Positions 12,829 through 27,704 of a DNA stretch of 35,657 nt are shown here, one piece after another (positions within the stretch are counted from its first letter, which is position 1; each line of letters begins with the position of its first letter). Both the position numbers and the translations under genes were made by a program. The DNA lies in NCBI GenBank assembly GCA_946623125.1, contig CAMOQR010000014.1:1-35657 (forward strand), read 5' to 3'. The stretch comes from an uncultured Caryophanales bacterium. GTDB lineage: Bacteria > Bacillota_I > Bacilli_A > RF39 > UBA660. The notes under the pieces were generated by a model. It was not told the origin of the DNA, searched no databases, and saw nothing but the letters and a program-made list of their open reading frames with translations.

Positions 12829-15800
12829 TTATTTTGCCTTTGGATGTTCAATTTCTCCAAAAATACTTTCATAATAATTTTCTAGATAAGTTACATATTC
12901 TTCGTCTGATTCATTATTTTCTCTTACTCTAGGTTTTTTAAAATTTGTCCCAGGAATATATTCATTATCTAATAAATCTTCTGCTTTTTCTTGTCGATTT
13001 TTGTCTTTAAATTCTATTTCTTTATACTCAATCTTATATGGAGAATATGGGTTATTGGCATTTCCAATAATATATTCTAAGTCACCTGGATCTAAAATAT
13101 AATAGTTTTCTCCATTTATTTGTACCTCTTCTACCGTTGATGATAATCGGAATTGATTAAAAATATCTTTTTTTACAAATACAATTCCTTTATCTTCATT
13201 TGTTTTATATAATGTAATCGTTTTTCTTGCATTTTCATTTTCTGCAGGTTTCATTTTCCTTACATTAATTTTAATATCTTCATATTCCACTTTATATGGT
13301 TTTTTGTTTCTATTTGCTTTAGATATTATTTCTGTTAAATCTCTATTATCTATTACATAATAAGATTCTCCATCTATTATTACTTCTTCTACATCTGCTT
13401 TAATTTGTAATTTATCAAAATCTTCTTTTTTAATATATAGTTTTTCTGTATTCAATTCATTACGATAAATCTTTAGAGTTCTTTTTGCTTTTTCATTCTC
13501 AGCAGGTTTCATATTCTCGGAGTTTAGATAGATATCTTTATATACGATTTTATATGGATGATAACGATTATTGGCATTTCCAATGATATATTCTAAATCT
13601 CCTGGATCAATTACGTAATATATTTCATTATTTATTTCTACTTTTTCTACTGTTGCTTGAAGACTAAAGTGCTTGAAGATATCTTTTTTTACAAAGAATA
13701 CATCTGGTTGTTTACTATTTTTAAATATTTCTATTTCTTCTGTTGCTTCTTCATTTTTTGCTGGTCTCATATTTATTGAGTCCATTGGAATATCTTTAAA
13801 TACTACCTTATAAGGTGCATATTTATTATTGGCATTTCCAACAATATATGCTAAGTCTTTTTCATCAATGACATAGCATGGTAATCCACTTATTAATACC
13901 TCTTCTACACTAGTATTGAGGTTAAATTTTTCAAATAAATCTTTTCTAACATACCATTTTTCTGTATCTTTTTCATTTCGATATATTGTAAAGACTTCTG
14001 TTGCTTTATCATTTTTAGCAACTTTCATGTTTCTGGCATTTATTTCTACATCTTTATATGTTACCTCATATGGAATATCTGATTTTTCTGCCATTCCTAG
14101 AAGGTAAGATAAATCTCCTCTATCAATTACATAACAGGAAATTCCACTGATAATTACTTCTTCCACATCTAAATCTAGATTTAAATCTTCATATACTTTT
14201 CTACGGATATATAACATATCAGGTTGTAATTTATTTCGATAGATAATTAATTTTTTCTTTTCTATTAATTCATCTGTTTTGGCAAGCGTTATTTCTCCAT
14301 CATATAATAGATCATTTTCATTTAATTTGATATCTCTATAAAAAATAACATATGGATCATCATCATTATTTGCTCCATTTAATATATCAATAACATCGGA
14401 TGTTTTCATTTCATAAATGTTTTTACCATTATCCATTTCAATTACATATTTAGGTACGGGAACATGAAACTTTTTAAATACTTTTTTTGTTGTAAAAATT
14501 CTTCCTGTATCATTAATATCTCTATAGAAGACTACCTCATCAACTTTTTTATCATCTATAACATATTCTTCTATCTTCTCGGTATCTTTCATAGTATCAG
14601 TTTTCCTTTCTTCTATTACTTCTTCTTTCATCTCTTCAAAATGGGTATCAAAAGTATTTGTTTCATACATATTGTACAAATTTACATCTTTACTTGCTTC
14701 CTCAGAGTCTAGTAATTTAATTGCAGGGGCCACATAATAATCATTTCCTCTAGTTTGAAGGTTTTTTATTATTTCTTTTCGTTCTTTTTCTGTTACTTCT
14801 TTTCCTTCTTTATTTCTTACTTCGTTAATTGCTTCTGCAATTGTTTCGTATGATATTTCATCAATATATGTTGAATTTGCTAGAGCATTTTTATAAAATT
14901 CAATTTCTGCTTCTTTTGTTTTTAATTCTCTTTTTCCTGCACCTAATCCCATTTTTTGTAATAGTTTTATAGCCTCCATTAGAGGATCTGTAATTCTTCC
15001 AGGATTGCTGTTTTCTACATTTTCATAATAGTCATTTGTTGACATAATTAATGATGTTGGGATACTGATTACTTCTGGTGAGTGAGCATAAATATCGTTT
15101 TCAATTGGAACTAAGAATGAATTGAAACAATTTCTTGTATTTCCATTTCCTATATCAGTGGCGATATCAATTAAAGCAATATTATCGATATCATATCTTG
15201 AATCTTTTATTCTTAGAATATTCTTTTGCTGTTTTCCATTGGAATAGGTAAAACAGTCAATTCCTGCTTTTCTTAAAACAATGGAATAAAAATTAGATAA
15301 TTCTTCGCAACTTTTTTTATTTTTATTGTAAATTTTATTTAGTTGTGATTCTTCTATTACTGGTTCCTTATTATTTTTGGTATTTAAAATTAAATCTTTT
15401 AAATACTCTTCTACATATACAATTCTTTCTAATGGAGAATAATCATATTCATCCATATGCTTTATTAACTCATCGATTTCTGTTAATTGTTTTACATAAT
15501 CATTTAATTCTTGTTCTTCACATACTTCTGTATCTGAATAATAATTTACTCCTTCTGTATATGGTTCTCTTTGATATTGACTTAGTATTTCATTACTAGT
15601 TGTATATTTTACTTTGATTGGATTATTTATTATGTTTTGTAGTCTTTCAAAATCTGTCTTTTGATCTATAACTGGATTTCCTAGTAATTCTATTTCAATT
15701 TCATCTGATACGTCGTTTTCTTTTAATTGTTGGAATAATTCTGCATAATAATCTGTATCATAATAGTCAATATATAATTTATCATATTTATTTTCTTGTA

Positions 15801-16377
15801 ATAGTTGTGTTAAGGTTTTTACTTCATCTTTTGTTAATTTATGATTAATGTGAATATTATAATGATCAACGGACTCTATTTTTGTTCCTTTATTTTTTTC
15901 TAGTTTTATGTGTTCCATTACACCTACATTCTTTTGACATCTTACATCTATATCATTTGATGATATATCTATTTCAGGATCTACTTTGTCTGCTGCTATT
16001 AAAAAGCCCGGTACATCTTTTTTGGTAAATTTATCAAATATATCTTTCGTTAATTCTGCATTTTCTGGTATTAGGCGTATTCCAAGTAATAAGCCATAAT
16101 GGTAAGCATTACATATGATATCAATTATGGAATCATTTAATAGGCGATAATCTATTGCTATTGTTTTTCCATCCATATTTCCTTGCAAATTAATCCATTC
16201 TTTGAATTTTCTAATATCATTTTCATTTTCTGGGTTAATACTTGCATTTGCAATATATCTTTCAGACTCATCAAAATATGAATTTCCTATTCTATAATCT
16301 TCTATTTTTCCTTCTTCTTCTGTAAAATTATAATTAAAAATATCTACTTTGTAATAATCATTTATCTTAGCTTCCAT
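12829..16377 (-). CDS. Large protein with transglutaminase-like domain and six tandem ~86-residue repeats
   Basis: I do not recognise this 1182-residue protein as a named family. No signal peptide or membrane span is visible, so it is probably cytosolic. Residues 1-290 are a mixed alpha/beta region without motifs. Residues about 315-410 look transglutaminase-like: a helix, then KSCEELSNFYSIVLRKAGID around Cys357, then strands ending LIDIATD (Asp404/408). The expected His position reads KNILRIKD, so the triad may be broken. After a charged linker come tandem repeats: 612-674 (divergent), 675-768, 769-854, 855-940, 941-1026 and 1027-1112, the last four exactly 86 residues. Each contains PYKVxYKDI, MKPAxNE, IYRN, KKDIF, VEEV, YYVID and DLEYIIGNANN. 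The C-terminus is acidic. It has its own promoter and AAGGAG ribosome site. Binding or scaffold work by the repeats is a guess. Confidence 0.75.
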   Translation of the reverse strand: MEAKINDYYKVDIFNYNFTEEEGKIEDYRIGNSYFDESERYIANASINPENENDIRKFKEWINLQGNMDGKTIAIDYRLLNDSIIDIICNAYHYGLLLGIRLIPENAELTKDIFDKFTKKDVPGFLIAADKVDPEIDISSNDIDVRCQKNVGVMEHIKLEKNKGTKIESVDHYNIHINHKLTKDEVKTLTQLLQENKYDKLYIDYYDTDYYAELFQQLKENDVSDEIEIELLGNPVIDQKTDFERLQNIINNPIKVKYTTSNEILSQYQREPYTEGVNYYSDTEVCEEQELNDYVKQLTEIDELIKHMDEYDYSPLERIVYVEEYLKDLILNTKNNKEPVIEESQLNKIYNKNKKSCEELSNFYSIVLRKAGIDCFTYSNGKQQKNILRIKDSRYDIDNIALIDIATDIGNGNTRNCFNSFLVPIENDIYAHSPEVISIPTSLIMSTNDYYENVENSNPGRITDPLMEAIKLLQKMGLGAGKRELKTKEAEIEFYKNALANSTYIDEISYETIAEAINEVRNKEGKEVTEKERKEIIKNLQTRGNDYYVAPAIKLLDSEEASKDVNLYNMYETNTFDTHFEEMKEEVIEERKTDTMKDTEKIEEYVIDDKKVDEVVFYRDINDTGRIFTTKKVFKKFHVPVPKYVIEMDNGKNIYEMKTSDVIDILNGANNDDDPYVIFYRDIKLNENDLLYDGEITLAKTDELIEKKKLIIYRNKLQPDMLYIRRKVYEDLNLDLDVEEVIISGISCYVIDRGDLSYLLGMAEKSDIPYEVTYKDVEINARNMKVAKNDKATEVFTIYRNEKDTEKWYVRKDLFEKFNLNTSVEEVLISGLPCYVIDEKDLAYIVGNANNKYAPYKVVFKDIPMDSINMRPAKNEEATEEIEIFKNSKQPDVFFVKKDIFKHFSLQATVEKVEINNEIYYVIDPGDLEYIIGNANNRYHPYKIVYKDIYLNSENMKPAENEKAKRTLKIYRNELNTEKLYIKKEDFDKLQIKADVEEVIIDGESYYVIDNRDLTEIISKANRNKKPYKVEYEDIKINVRKMKPAENENARKTITLYKTNEDKGIVFVKKDIFNQFRLSSTVEEVQINGENYYILDPGDLEYIIGNANNPYSPYKIEYKEIEFKDKNRQEKAEDLLDNEYIPGTNFKKPRVRENNESDEEYVTYLENYYESIFGEIEHPKAK
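13042..14544 (-). repeat. Six tandem protein-coding repeats (~258 bp unit)
   Basis: Units lie at 13042-13299, 13300-13557, 13558-13815, 13816-14073, 14074-14355 (282 bp) and 14356-14544 (divergent, shorter). The four C-terminal units have exactly the same length. They are similar in protein but diverged in DNA, so this is an old duplication and not a recent tandem array. Confidence 0.9.
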
Positions 16378-22509: not shown

Positions 22510-22533
22510 TCTACTCCTCCTAGTAAATAATAA

Positions 22534-22555
22534 GAGTGGGATTTTTTTCCCACTC
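22534..22555 (-). promoter_or_regulatory. Leader hairpin of the rimP-nusA operon
   Basis: An 8-bp perfect stem GAGTGGGA / TCCCACTC with a six-base loop lies between the rimP promoter and the rimP ribosome site, near the predicted 5' end of the transcript. No long U run follows on the minus strand, so a stabilising or regulatory stem fits better than a terminator. Confidence 0.55.
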
Positions 22556-22567
22556 CTTTCTTTTTGT

Positions 22568-22596
22568 ATTATAACACGTTTTTTTTATTTTACCAA
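22568..22596 (-). promoter_or_regulatory. Sigma-A type promoter of the rimP-nusA-ylxR-infB-orf-rbfA operon
   Basis: TTGGTA (22591-22596), 17 bases, TATAAT (22568-22573) on the minus strand, just downstream of the J-domain/LysM gene's stop. Confidence 0.8.
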
Positions 22597-22604
22597 GTAT
22601 TTTC

Positions 22605-23876
22605 TTAATAGCTCTTTGTATTTTGTGTTTTTATAGTATCAACTTCACTTCTTGATGGGAATTTTGGTACTATAATCGTATCACTTAAAATGATATAGAC
22701 TCCTTTTACTTCTTGAATAGATTCTTTGTTTAGTTCATATAATGTATCTATATCTGTTTCATATTCTTTTGCTAAATCATATAATGATTTTTCATTCGTT
22801 TGAATTACTTGACTATAATACTGTAAATCTTCTTTTTTTACTTTATATGGCATTTTAATGATATCTCCCATGTATATCATATCGCTTGACAATTCATTTA
22901 TCCATTTTAATTCTCGAACTGTATTATATGAGTCTTCTGCTAAATTTGATAAGGTATCTCCATTTTTGATTCTATAATTTCGAATTAATGTAATATTTGA
23001 GTTTTCTTCTTCAACTGTTTGAATAAGTGTTACATCATTTTGATTTTCAGTTTGAATAATCGGATTTACTGGATCAGGATTATCCTTTCCTCCAAATGAT
23101 ATTATCATTCCTGTTAACGTCGCAGCAAGAATTAATTTACGATTTCTGATTATAAATTTTGGTACTGTATCTTTACCAATATAAGATAATTTTTCAAGTT
23201 GGAAAAGTGTTTCTCCTACAACATGTACTACACCATTTTTCAAATAGAATACTACCACATCTTTTGGAGTTTCAATTTCAGATTCGTAATTTCTTTCAAA
23301 TATTCTATTGATTCTTCTATGTCTCTTTCTAAAAGAATGTTTCTGTTCTTCTTTTCTTATTTCCTTATATGATTTTTTTAAATCTCCCAGTATTGTTTCA
23401 TCATCTTCTGGATGTTCTCTATAATATCTTGCTCTTTCTTTTTCTTCTTCTCCATATGGGTTTCTTCTTGTATCTTCAAAATGTGTCTTATATTCTTCTT
23501 GATATTGTGTTTTTTTCTTTTCTTGTTCTTTTTGTCTTTCTTCTTCTCTTTGTCTTTCTTGTTCTCTTTTTCTTTCTTCTTCTCTTTGTCTTTCTTCTTC
23601 TCTTTTCAACTCTTCTTGTTTCTTTTGTTTTCTAGCATAATACTCTTTATCATATTCTTTTCTTAATTCTGGTGTTCGTAGTATTTGATAGACTTCGTTT
23701 GCTCGAGTAAAACAAACTCTCATTTCTTCTAATTCGCTTTCGGTAAATTTTCTATCAGGATAATAATCTGGGTGCAATATTTTAGCAAGTCTATGATATG
23801 CTTGTTTTATTTGTTCTGGTGTTGCTGTTGGCTCTATCTCAAAAAATTTATAATAATCATAAAAATCTTGACTCAT
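22605..23876 (-). CDS. J-domain / transmembrane / LysM protein
   Basis: The 423-residue protein joins domains rarely seen together. Residues 1-80 are a DnaJ J domain with the HPD tripeptide at 35-37, which stimulates Hsp70 ATPase. Residues 84-122 are a highly charged Arg/Glu/Gln helix or coiled coil, followed by more charged sequence and a predicted small strand-rich segment (about 205-235). Residues about 247-262 are the single membrane span. The rest lies outside and has two LysM-like domains: 300-345 (YRIKNGDTLSNLAEDSY, the clear one) and about 355-405 (LYDLAKEYETDIDTLYELN). LysM binds peptidoglycan, so the protein could tether chaperone activity to the envelope. There is no signal peptide; type II topology is expected. 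It has a consensus promoter and GGGGGG ribosome site. Domain calls are good; function is inferred. Confidence 0.85.
   Translation of the reverse strand: MSQDFYDYYKFFEIEPTATPEQIKQAYHRLAKILHPDYYPDRKFTESELEEMRVCFTRANEVYQILRTPELRKEYDKEYYARKQKKQEELKREEERQREEERKREQERQREEERQKEQEKKKTQYQEEYKTHFEDTRRNPYGEEEKERARYYREHPEDDETILGDLKKSYKEIRKEEQKHSFRKRHRRINRIFERNYESEIETPKDVVVFYLKNGVVHVVGETLFQLEKLSYIGKDTVPKFIIRNRKLILAATLTGMIISFGGKDNPDPVNPIIQTENQNDVTLIQTVEEENSNITLIRNYRIKNGDTLSNLAEDSYNTVRELKWINELSSDMIYMGDIIKMPYKVKKEDLQYYSQVIQTNEKSLYDLAKEYETDIDTLYELNKESIQEVKGVYIILSDTIIVPKFPSRSEVDTIKTQNTKSY
23520..23625 (-). repeat. Low-complexity coding repeat (Arg/Glu/Gln helix)
   Basis: Imperfect repeats of about 18-24 bp (plus-strand TCTTTCTTCTTCTCTTTG-like units) encode EERQREEERKREQERQ-type sequence in the J-domain/LysM protein. 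Such tracts can vary in length between strains. Confidence 0.75.
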
Positions 23877-23918: not shown

Positions 23919-23947
23919 ATTATACCATATTTTGTTAATTATGTCAA
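23919..23947 (-). promoter_or_regulatory. Perfect consensus sigma-A promoter for the J-domain/LysM gene
   Basis: TTGACA (23942-23947), 17 bases, TATAAT (23919-23924) on the minus strand. The -35 box overlaps the truB stop. Confidence 0.9.
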
Positions 23948-24807
23948 TTTTTGAAGTTCTTCCAAACCTTTAGTATATCGTTTTCTTTTTGATAAATTCC
24001 TAGTAACTTATTTTCTTTATTTTTAAATAGCACCTTTGTCTCTATGTTCCACTGATTTTTAATTTTTACACCATTTTTAATTTGTTTTTCTAGTAATCCT
24101 TCTACTTTTACTATTGGATAAATAGATGCCAAAACATCTTCTATTGATATCATTTTATAATGATTGTTTTTTATATCTTGTAATGTGTATGATTCTTTAA
24201 TTGATATTCTTCCTTGTTTTGTTCTTATTAAAGATGTCATTGTTGCACCTGTTCCTAGTTTTATTCCTATATCATTGATTAAACTTCTTATGTAGCATCC
24301 TTTTGTTACTTGACATCTAAATTTAAACTTATTCTCATTCCAGTCAAGAAGTTCTATTTCTTTTATTGTCACTTCTTTTTTTGGTAGTTCTACTTCTTCT
24401 TTATTTCTTGCATATTCATAAAGTTTTTTTCCATTTACTTTTACTGCAGAATATATTGGAACTTCCTGTAAATATGTTTTTTGAAAAGAAGATAATACTT
24501 TTTTTAATTCAATATTTTTTGGTACTTCTTTTGTCTCTATTACCTTTCCTTCTATATCATATGTATCCGTTTTTATTCCTAGTACTGCTTCCGCAATATA
24601 TTCTTTGTCATGGGCAGTTATTAGTTCGGCAATTTTAGTTGCCTCTCCAACACATACAATTAATACTCCTTCTGCCATTGGGTCTAAAGTTCCTGTATGT
24701 CCCACTTTTCTTGTTCCTAATTGTTTACTTATTTCTTTTACAACATCATAGGATGTCATATTCTTTTCTTTATTTACGATTATTATTCCTGATAAGTTTT
24801 CTTGCAT
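23944..24807 (-). CDS. truB: tRNA pseudouridine-55 synthase TruB
   Basis: TruB makes pseudouridine 55 in the T loop of tRNA. The 287-residue protein shows the catalytic motif GHTGTLDPMAEGVL with Asp42, plus DKEYIAEAVLGIKTDTYD, IYSAVKVNGKKLYEYAR and the TKGCYIRSLINDIG segment, all typical of the family. Length is normal; the C-terminal part (about 235-287) resembles a small PUA-like end. It starts with GGTGAT just before the ATG, behind an extended -10 promoter, giving a very short leader. It is separated from rbfA, its common partner, by the whole rimP operon and the J-domain gene. Confidence 0.95.
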   Translation of the reverse strand: MQENLSGIIIVNKEKNMTSYDVVKEISKQLGTRKVGHTGTLDPMAEGVLIVCVGEATKIAELITAHDKEYIAEAVLGIKTDTYDIEGKVIETKEVPKNIELKKVLSSFQKTYLQEVPIYSAVKVNGKKLYEYARNKEEVELPKKEVTIKEIELLDWNENKFKFRCQVTKGCYIRSLINDIGIKLGTGATMTSLIRTKQGRISIKESYTLQDIKNNHYKMISIEDVLASIYPIVKVEGLLEKQIKNGVKIKNQWNIETKVLFKNKENKLLGIYQKENDILKVWKNFKN

Positions 24808-24845: not shown

Positions 24846-24872
24846 AAAAAAAAGGAACTATTTTTCCTTTTT
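24846..24872 (-). terminator. Terminator of the TasA-like/signal peptidase/DUF5305 operon
   Basis: A 9-bp stem AAAAAGGAA / TTCCTTTTT with a six-base loop is followed by a U run on the minus strand and overlaps the end of the DUF5305-like gene. Confidence 0.85.
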
Positions 24873-25994
24873 ATTTGATATTTTAATTACTTTTCCTGTT
24901 TCTTTTTTTAACTTTTTTAGTTCTCTTTTAATATCTTTTATCCGAATACTATAGACATATAATATTTTTGTTTGACTTGGAACGATAAAGAATGTCCCTT
25001 TTCCATTTGGATCACTTGCCATTAAAATTGGTTCTGATATTGTTTCTCTTATTTCTAATAAATCAGTAAATTCATTTACATATAATACTTGATAATCACT
25101 AAATACAAAATCATTATTAATTTTTTGAATATAAGAATGATAATTATTTAGAATCTTTTTTAATTGTTGTTCATAAATATTTTGTACTGATCTTGTATTT
25201 ATTGCATATTTAAGTAGTTTAATAATCATTATTATTTCTATTATTATCATTATAATTGTTGTGAAAATTAAGAATAAATTATTTTCTGATTTACACTTAA
25301 TTGTATTGTTATTATCTTGTAAAATATTAGAACTAATATCAATTGCTACTGTTTTTGTGGTTAAAGGTATATCAATTGATACCACTGATTCATTTGTATT
25401 ATCAACGATTTTTTCTCCACTTCCAGAAACATTTACAATCATTTTTATAGATAAAACACTTTCAATATTATCTAAATCATATACATCTACAAATTTTTGA
25501 ATTAAACTATTATATTTATTATAATCAATCTTTACATTATCTGTTATTTTTACTATGTTATTCTTATTATCTTCAAAACTTTTTTCTGGAATAATTGTTT
25601 CATCATAAGTAAATAATGGTTTTGAACTGTTTTTTTCTTTTACATTAACATTTGCATCTATTCTATATTTGTAATTATAATGAACATTTTTTTCATTCAT
25701 TGATAAATTATAATTAAAATTAGCATCAATATAATCAATTATGTTTGCTATATACTGTTTATCTTTTTCTAGGTATTTTTCTTTGAAAAAATCATTTTCT
25801 TTTAAGTATACTTTATAATTTACAGTACCATTTTCTTGATAAGATGCATATTTTGTTAGACTTGTTTTAATACTAAAATATCCTAACAAAATAATTACGA
25901 TGAGTAAAAATACAATAAAAGAAGTGTAGAAAATGATTTTTTTTCTGCGTTCTTCTTCATCTATAAACATTTCTGCTATCTGACTTCTTTTCAT
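24858..25994 (-). CDS. DUF5305-like two-span membrane protein
   Basis: The 378-residue protein has a charged N-terminus, a membrane span (about 19-42), a large outside domain (about 45-235), a second span (about 240-263) and a cytosolic tail of about 115 residues (with FFIVPSQTKILYVYS). The outside domain, with YKVYLKENDFF, YIDANFNYNLS and HYNYKYRIDANVNV, resembles DUF5305, a family I associate with signal peptidase neighbours in archaea and Bacillota. The function of that family is unknown. It is the last gene of a three-gene unit after a TasA-like protein and a SipW-type signal peptidase, 15 bases after the latter, so it may assist export, processing or anchoring of the fibre protein. The family call is from memory of pattern, not a search. 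Confidence 0.65.
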   Translation of the reverse strand: MKRSQIAEMFIDEEERRKKIIFYTSFIVFLLIVIILLGYFSIKTSLTKYASYQENGTVNYKVYLKENDFFKEKYLEKDKQYIANIIDYIDANFNYNLSMNEKNVHYNYKYRIDANVNVKEKNSSKPLFTYDETIIPEKSFEDNKNNIVKITDNVKIDYNKYNSLIQKFVDVYDLDNIESVLSIKMIVNVSGSGEKIVDNTNESVVSIDIPLTTKTVAIDISSNILQDNNNTIKCKSENNLFLIFTTIIMIIIEIIMIIKLLKYAINTRSVQNIYEQQLKKILNNYHSYIQKINNDFVFSDYQVLYVNEFTDLLEIRETISEPILMASDPNGKGTFFIVPSQTKILYVYSIRIKDIKRELKKLKKETGKVIKISNKKEK

Positions 25995-26009
25995 GTATTT
26001 TCCCCTTTC

Positions 26010-27131
26010 CTATTTTTTAAATGATTCTCTTAACCATAAAGTTGGGTTTCCTATATATGGTATTTTAAATAACACAATTCCTTTAATACTACTACTTGTT
26101 ATATATCCATTATCTATATCTTTATTGGCATCTCCTTTTGTGTAATACCTTATTGTTCCATTTACATTACTATAATTCACTATTCTATGAACTGTAGTTG
26201 TATTATCTTTTTCATAGATAATAATCGTGCCTTCTTTGATTTGTTGTTTTTTATATTGTTGAAAGATGACTGCATCTCCTTTATTAATAGTACCAGTCAT
26301 TGAGCCCGATCCAATTACTAGAATTCCATATCGAAATCGACATGATATTAAACAGACAATAAAGGTTGTAACTGTTATCATAATTCCAGTTTGCACGGCA
26401 TTCTTTCTTTTATCTTTATAGGATGCTATACTGTTTTGTTTAGAATAAGCATATTCTAATACAAAATATATAAAATATGGATATATAATTCGAAATAAAG
26501 TACGAAAGAATATATAAACATTTGGAATTACAGGAATTATGTAGGAATATAAAATAGTTATTAAATGATATATCATAGATGGTTTATAGCCATAGTTTTT
26601 TGCAAGATAATTGTATAAAATATTTGTTGCGATAGATGCAAATAATACAAATCCCATTTGGGCTAAAAACCCATTTAGTGTTGATGCATCATATATATTT
26701 TTATATATTATTAAATCAATTAATACCATATTTATGATTGTTAATAATTCTTGTTTTTTATCATCTTGCGATAATAATATAAATCTTATTTTTTCACATA
26801 ATATTATGGTTATTGATACTGGTATTATAAATGTTATGAGACTTTTAAAGGTAAGGGTATGATATGTTTTAGTAAATCCAAAATAAATACCAGTTGAATA
26901 AAATAATAAAACATATATGATAGAAAGAATGAATACTAATATACATACTTGTTTATGATATATGGATATTCCTCTTTCTTTTTTTATGATTTTTTTTAGT
27001 AAAACCATATATATCAACAAAAAGGCTGCTATTAAAAATCTTGAAATATTTGTTGATACAAACAGTGCAAAAAGAAGAATTATTCCTAATATGAGTTCAA
27101 GACCATAGATTTTTATTTTGTCTTTTTTCAT
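26010..27131 (-). CDS. SipW/archaeal-type signal peptidase I with long multi-span N-terminus
   Basis: The C-terminal third (about 265-365) is a family S26B signal peptidase: GSGSM with nucleophile Ser277, TTTVHRIV with His315 in the place of the usual bacterial Lys, and YTKGDANKDID with Asp334/Asp338. This Ser-His-Asp type is shared with B. subtilis SipW and the ER/archaeal enzymes. It probably cleaves the signal peptide of the TasA-like protein encoded just upstream. Before it lie about 260 residues with some seven hydrophobic spans, far more than SipW has; the extra part is of unknown role. The 373-residue gene begins 39 bases after the TasA-like stop, with GAGAGGGATG upstream, and is followed by the DUF5305-like gene. 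Confidence 0.88.
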   Translation of the reverse strand: MKKDKIKIYGLELILGIILLFALFVSTNISRFLIAAFLLIYMVLLKKIIKKERGISIYHKQVCILVFILSIIYVLLFYSTGIYFGFTKTYHTLTFKSLITFIIPVSITIILCEKIRFILLSQDDKKQELLTIINMVLIDLIIYKNIYDASTLNGFLAQMGFVLFASIATNILYNYLAKNYGYKPSMIYHLITILYSYIIPVIPNVYIFFRTLFRIIYPYFIYFVLEYAYSKQNSIASYKDKRKNAVQTGIMITVTTFIVCLISCRFRYGILVIGSGSMTGTINKGDAVIFQQYKKQQIKEGTIIIYEKDNTTTVHRIVNYSNVNGTIRYYTKGDANKDIDNGYITSSSIKGIVLFKIPYIGNPTLWLRESFKK

Positions 27132-27170
27132 ATTCTACATCCCTCTCTTTGCCTAATTTCTACTAACAAA

Positions 27171-27704
27171 TTATGGTGTTGTTTTTTCTGCTGGGTCTGC
27201 AGCAAATGTTACTTCTATTGTTGTTGTTTTATCTTCAAGTGGTAGTTTTTTTAACTTAACAGTTACTGTTACTGTTGTTGTCTCTGCTGGTTGTAATGTA
27301 ACAGTTGAAGCACTTCCTGCTAATGCAGCAGTTACATCAAAATATTCTGATTCTGTATTTGATGATACTGTTACATTTTTGATAATTGCAGCAAGTTCTT
27401 CACTATTGTTTAATACTGTATAAGTTGCAGTTACTTCTTCATCTACTTTTGTCATGCCTGTTACGTTGATACTTGCAGTTGTATCATTTGTAATCGCTGG
27501 TGTTACTGTAGCAGTAGAACCAGATGATTTTGTACTAGTTGGTGTACCAGTAAATTTAACATCAAAACCTTCTTCTGCTCCTGTTGCAGTTGCAGATCCA
27601 CTAATTCTTAAATTGATTGTTGATACGGCAGCATAACCGATTCCAAGTGCTAGTATTGCAACTAATACCGCAAGTAGTGTAAATGATTTTTTCTTTTTGC
27701 TCAT
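27171..27704 (-). CDS. TasA/camelysin-like exported protein (SipW-type signal peptide)
   Basis: The 177-residue protein starts with KKKKSF, a hydrophobic core (LLAVLVAILALGIGYAA) and then VSTINLRISGSATATG. This layout, with a signal peptide cut near an Ala and a following strand, is that of SipW-dependent proteins such as TasA and CalY. The mature part is Thr/Ser/Val-rich and looks all-beta (TATVTPAITNDTTASINVTG; TTTVTVTVKL), with no cysteine and no sorting signal. TasA forms extracellular fibres in biofilms; here fibre formation is inferred. It is short compared with TasA (about 260 residues). It heads the unit with its own promoter, has AGGAGGG upstream, and precedes the signal peptidase that should process it. 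Confidence 0.78.
   Translation of the reverse strand: MSKKKKSFTLLAVLVAILALGIGYAAVSTINLRISGSATATGAEEGFDVKFTGTPTSTKSSGSTATVTPAITNDTTASINVTGMTKVDEEVTATYTVLNNSEELAAIIKNVTVSSNTESEYFDVTAALAGSASTVTLQPAETTTVTVTVKLKKLPLEDKTTTIEVTFAADPAEKTTP

Follow-up and report, generated by a model that had tools for sequence, protein, structure and literature searches.

Does a single protein of an uncultured gut bacterium physically join the Hsp70 machinery of the cytosol to the cell wall? The question is raised by a gene in the window (the whole stretch of DNA analysed, 35,657 nucleotides), whose product was originally predicted to carry a J domain inside the cell, one membrane span and LysM domains outside. Domain models, conservation and the pattern of charges all support this predicted layout, and the coordinates first given for its parts proved correct to within a residue or two (Table 1). 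J-proteins decide where Hsp70 works, and one that grips the wall would tether DnaK physically to the envelope. We favour, with a probability of about 0.55, a reading in which the J-LysM protein is a membrane-anchored class C J co-chaperone that is held at peptidoglycan by LysM and draws DnaK to the inner side of the membrane.

Table 1 Features of the J-LysM locus, numbered along the window
Feature	Position	Strand	Basis
Neighbour rimP, short form, 82 aa	22261..22509	-	Pfam RimP_N only
Strong hairpin GTGGGA...TCCCAC, T-rich tail, in the gene-rimP interval	22532..22557	-	Sequence
J-LysM gene	22605..23876	-	Open frame, 423 aa
LysM 2 (divergent), residues about 355-407	22656..22814	-	Profile comparison, phmmer, model fold
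LysM 1, residues 301-343	22848..22976	-	Pfam PF01476, fold
Predicted single membrane span, residues 248-263	23088..23135	-	Charge pattern, longest apolar-run test
Juxtamembrane helical module, residues about 162-246, ending in invariant RNR (244-246)	23139..23393	-	Alignment, model
Charged helical spacer, residues about 78-135	23472..23645	-	Model helix 69-135, 15% mean identity, alignment
J domain, residues 7-76	23649..23858	-	Pfam PF00226 at 52.7 bits, whole-genome search
HPD motif, residues 35-37	23766..23774	-	Sequence; kept in 17 of 20 J-bearing homologs
Promoter-like site TTGACA-17-TATAAT, TG before second hexamer	23919..23947	-	Sequence
Neighbour truB	23944..24807	-	Pfam TruB_N

Pfam reports only DnaJ and LysM in the chain, and both models are matched by all 11 members of the family alignment. 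The J domain, expected at residues 1-80 with an HPD motif, was recovered at residues 7-76 well above the Pfam cut-off (52.7 against 27.8 bits) with HPD at 35-37; the zinc-finger and C-terminal substrate domains of DnaJ are absent, so the protein would be classed, by domain content, as a class C J-domain protein. The first LysM unit likewise exceeds its curated cut-off (39.9 against 20.9 bits for residues 301-343) and has the LysM fold, its model superposing on 4xcm at 0.7 Å over 45 residues. The second unit is weak by sequence, but profile comparison links it to the first (E 8.8e-6), and phmmer matches residues 300-392, spanning both units, to the two-LysM structure 4uz2. Modelled with a pLDDT of 88, the ectodomain forms two beta-alpha-alpha-beta units that match the tandem LysM of a Thermus thermophilus NlpC/P60 endopeptidase and the LysM units of MltD. 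The prediction of two C-terminal LysM-like domains was therefore borne out, one by Pfam and the other by profile and fold, and the search that might have given these domains another identity gave LysM. Searches of PHROGs and NCBIfam matched the J domain, LysM or the charged region in part, with no NCBIfam model at cut-off; no phage match to the protein was found, and plasmid matches were restricted to the J domain. Since about twenty independent assemblies carry this chain, we rejected an assembly chimera.

Between these two ends lie three further segments. In the predicted model, a single helix (residues 69-135) continues out of the J domain into a charged region that we read as a spacer, since some relatives have almost none of it and its mean identity is 15%; its length differs among relatives in the alignment. 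It is followed by a juxtamembrane module that the original prediction did not contain, modelled as helical with moderate confidence. The module carries conserved G215, H218, E222, Q226, D236 and K240 and an invariant R244-N245-R246 at the membrane edge, and its mean pairwise identity is 32%, against 37% for the J domain and 39% for LysM. No Pfam relative was found for it, and the best match of a PDB profile search (E 0.15) is no relative; the structure search used the full model, in which J and LysM matches filled the results, so that the module may have a known fold.

The predicted membrane span follows directly as 16 apolar residues. Its predicted place, residues 247-262, agrees with an apolar run at 248-263 that is conserved across the family; what weakens the claim is that the run is short and moderately hydrophobic in the window protein. 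The longest run without D, E, K, R, N, Q or H sits at this position in 23 of 23 homologs and exceeds shuffles at p<0.05 in 18 of the 23. Most members have a net positive charge before the span and a negative or neutral charge after it, and this flanking charge, together with the conserved position, favours an N-in/C-out topology in most members. The LysM pair would accordingly lie outside the cell and, as its domain family suggests, would bind glycan strands. A close pair of HPD-less homologs (L013 and L015) have, unlike the rest of the family, a cysteine at the span end in a lipobox-like setting (MASC, VGSC).

The same domain order recurs in 20 J-bearing homologs, all within one family of uncultured gut Bacilli, with overall identities of 28-39% among J-LysM members. 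In the window's genus, 39 genomes yielded 12 J-bearing homologs and three homologs without a J domain, and the remaining genomes had separate LysM or DnaJ matches only, or none; further members occur in other genera of the family. The juxtamembrane-module profile alone finds 17 of 386 genomes and 9 of 150 genera of the family, and nothing convincing beyond it where order, class and phylum were sampled. The distribution is thus narrow and patchy, and many close relatives have no J-LysM gene. In the collection with named records, the relatives come from metagenome assemblies that bear the labels uncultured bacterium, Bacilli, Bacillales, Firmicutes or Erysipelotrichaceae; for several, the titles point to the gut of goat, yak or deer. 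They were recovered by a contig scan with an alignment of six closer sequences, a 14-row alignment being too diverse; a scan with the single window protein as query returned zero relatives. Weak matches of the juxtamembrane profile outside the family were dropped (G794 runs through stop codons and G709 is a 68-aa frame), and two matches of the contig scan, L078 and L079, cover only query residues 3-71 and 2-34, within the J domain, and do not count as relatives.

Variation among the homologs separates a constant part from a dispensable one. The HPD motif is lost in three of the 20 J-bearing homologs, and the three homologs without the whole J domain retain the span and LysM, which indicates that J function is not obligatory. 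In a tree with most deep forks unresolved and an arbitrary root, the J-less forms make up one clade and the HPD-less forms fall in two places, and loss of the J domain is the simpler reading because it is present in other genera. What stays constant is therefore the wall-side part, and the J domain is a cytosolic arm that most members retain and some have lost. Because span and LysM stay where the arm is missing, this LysM-membrane core probably does something in its own right, and the J arm would probably serve that role. The lineage thus offers a natural experiment, with close relatives that have HPD, lack HPD, lack the J domain or lack the gene.

Most J-LysM homologs adjoin truB and/or rimP. 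Among nine relatives with long flanks examined, truB precedes the gene in all nine, directly in seven; an open frame separates the two genes in L068, and a reverse-strand frame does so in L072. Downstream, six of the nine have rimP and nusA immediately after the gene, and the other three have a putative antiporter gene there. In genus members without the gene, truB adjoins rimP, or other genes lie in between. The J-less forms also follow truB and are therefore probably orthologs; genes that resemble those for ribosomal protein L19 and a signal peptidase, as named from sequence, come after them. Exceptions are L042 (after an ftsW-like gene), L044 (followed by rimP and preceded by a different gene), L045 (ahead of truB) and the distant L048, which is located elsewhere. 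No linked regulator gene was found in the flanks examined.

In the window, the promoter-like site is a perfect match and overlaps the end of truB. Of 25 orthologous loci, 18 have an 11- or 12-of-12 sigma-A match in the upstream 130 bases, where shuffles would give 0.15. Because this near-consensus site recurs, the gene is probably transcribed as a separate unit during growth, as judged from these sequence patterns. The hairpin downstream of the gene is possibly a terminator or a rimP leader. Just upstream of it lies a second promoter-like site (22568-22596), and no Rfam family was found near the gene, hairpin included.

Other observations concern the surrounding genes. The short form of RimP (82-98 aa) also occurs in relatives, and the RimP of the window matches the N-terminal domain only. 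In many relatives, the TruB beside the J-LysM gene has an in-frame N-terminal VanY-type D,D-carboxypeptidase domain, which puts a wall peptidase and a tRNA pseudouridine synthase into one chain; a signal peptide is not evident. Pfam gives VanY 122 bits and TruB_N 174 bits for one such fusion (L069:6501-7895); by eye, L068, L023, L024, L025 and L045 have it too, as do genus members without J-LysM (L117 and L124), and the TruB of the window is without VanY. Elsewhere in the window, a cluster at 24858-27704, with Pfam matches below cut-off, encodes a DUF5305-like membrane protein, a SipW-like signal peptidase with extra membrane segments and a third, small secreted protein with a TasA/SipW-type leader. 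Pfam gives no match for a 1182-aa protein at 12829-16377, in which a unit of ~70-75 residues (YRDI...YVIDxxDL type) is repeated about six times.

How, then, might the protein work? Its genome carries DnaK and canonical DnaJ on one contig and also has Mur-ligase family genes, and the window encodes FtsW; Hsp70 is therefore present, and peptidoglycan probably so. The genome may belong to RF39 or a neighbouring order, judging by its style. For RF39, Field et al. predict that most species have a peptidoglycan wall and that the wall of this order is thin (PMC10868615). Because DnaK and wall-synthesis genes share the genome, a DnaK-wall link is a reasonable inference. In the model that we favour, the N terminus would lie in the cytosol and the LysM pair outside would grip glycan strands and so keep the protein at the wall; we consider it very probable that this topology and the binding by LysM are correct. 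The J domain, on its helical spacer of variable length, would recruit ATP-bound DnaK to the inner membrane face, a step we rate slightly above an even bet. The juxtamembrane module would bind a client or partner, bringing clients to DnaK, and our guess is that the clients are envelope or wall-synthesis proteins; no specific pointer to secretion sites or wall growth was found in this analysis. A stronger version of the model, in which LysM-peptidoglycan contact positions or switches the J domain through the previously undescribed juxtamembrane module to make a wall-gated Hsp70 recruiter, is unlikely; if true, it would provide a direct physical line from the wall to DnaK in these gut bacteria.

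The evidence on the J domain cuts both ways. HPD is retained in 17 of the 20 J-bearing members despite an overall identity of 28-39%, which speaks for a working co-chaperone, whereas its loss in three homologs and the absence of J in three others indicate that Hsp70 work is not always needed. These losses give substance to a rather less probable reading, in which the protein is mainly a wall-membrane tether or a scaffold at growth or division sites whose juxtamembrane module binds a partner inside. The J-less homologs beside truB that retain span and LysM, the disappearance of HPD at two places of the tree and the conserved module would all fit. On this account the J domain would be a protein contact only, or drifting to loss, without real Hsp70 work, which we also think somewhat unlikely: drift would predict neither the retention of HPD nor a J domain as conserved as LysM (37% against 39%).

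Recruitment of DnaK could also be subordinate to signalling, with LysM-peptidoglycan contact acting by way of the juxtamembrane module to alter the J domain's state and thereby tune DnaK or a DnaK-controlled regulator. Outside binding domains and a cytosolic J domain in one chain, with invariant residues at the membrane edge, would suit such a transmembrane wall sensor, and a comparable transmembrane signal has been proposed for SflA (PMC7226244). The lack of a linked regulator gene in the locus makes this reading quite improbable, as does a short single span with a variable spacer, which would fit a plain anchor equally well. LysM domains are also common in spore proteins, and a weak SafA-type NCBIfam match (12.1 bits against a cut-off of 67.85) could hint at a spore-envelope protein like several LysM proteins of spore formers. 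A spore role is, however, very improbable because a promoter-like site close to the consensus of the housekeeping sigma factor turns up repeatedly in the family; the neighbours, moreover, are translation genes.

The open literature, to which the search was confined, yielded no description of a membrane protein that combines J and LysM. The favoured co-chaperone reading can nevertheless be set beside known proteins that share parts of its layout. DjlA is a membrane-anchored J-protein with a cytosolic J domain; it differs in having an N-terminal span, a C-terminal J domain and no LysM, and its model reaches 13 bits here against a cut-off of 162. The small YneA/SosA division inhibitors of Bacilli share the N-in single span followed by LysM outside, but they have neither a J domain nor the juxtamembrane module, and the YneA model (NCBIfam NF010723) scores 20.6 bits against a cut-off of 60. 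TopJ of Mycoplasma, in wider relatives of the lineage, likewise has an N-terminal J domain on a long non-DnaJ protein, but it has no LysM and there is no wall; the match is confined to the J domain (29 bits against a cut-off of 300). SflA of Vibrio, which is located by HubP, crosses the membrane once, with its DnaJ domain in the cytosol and a binding domain outside (PMC7226244), the same three elements as in J-LysM. Its order is different, however: SflA is N-out, with TPR/Sel1-like repeats outside, then the span and a C-terminal J domain, and has no LysM, whereas here J is N-terminal and LysM C-terminal. HubP/FimV is anchored to peptidoglycan through a periplasmic LysM, has a single span and recruits cytosolic proteins (PMC7226244), a likeness in how outside LysM holds a recruiting protein; it differs in its opposite orientation, with LysM at the N terminus and a long cytosolic repeat region without J, whereas LysM follows the span here. 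By analogy, the J-LysM protein would work most like a mixture of SflA and HubP, and it belongs to neither.
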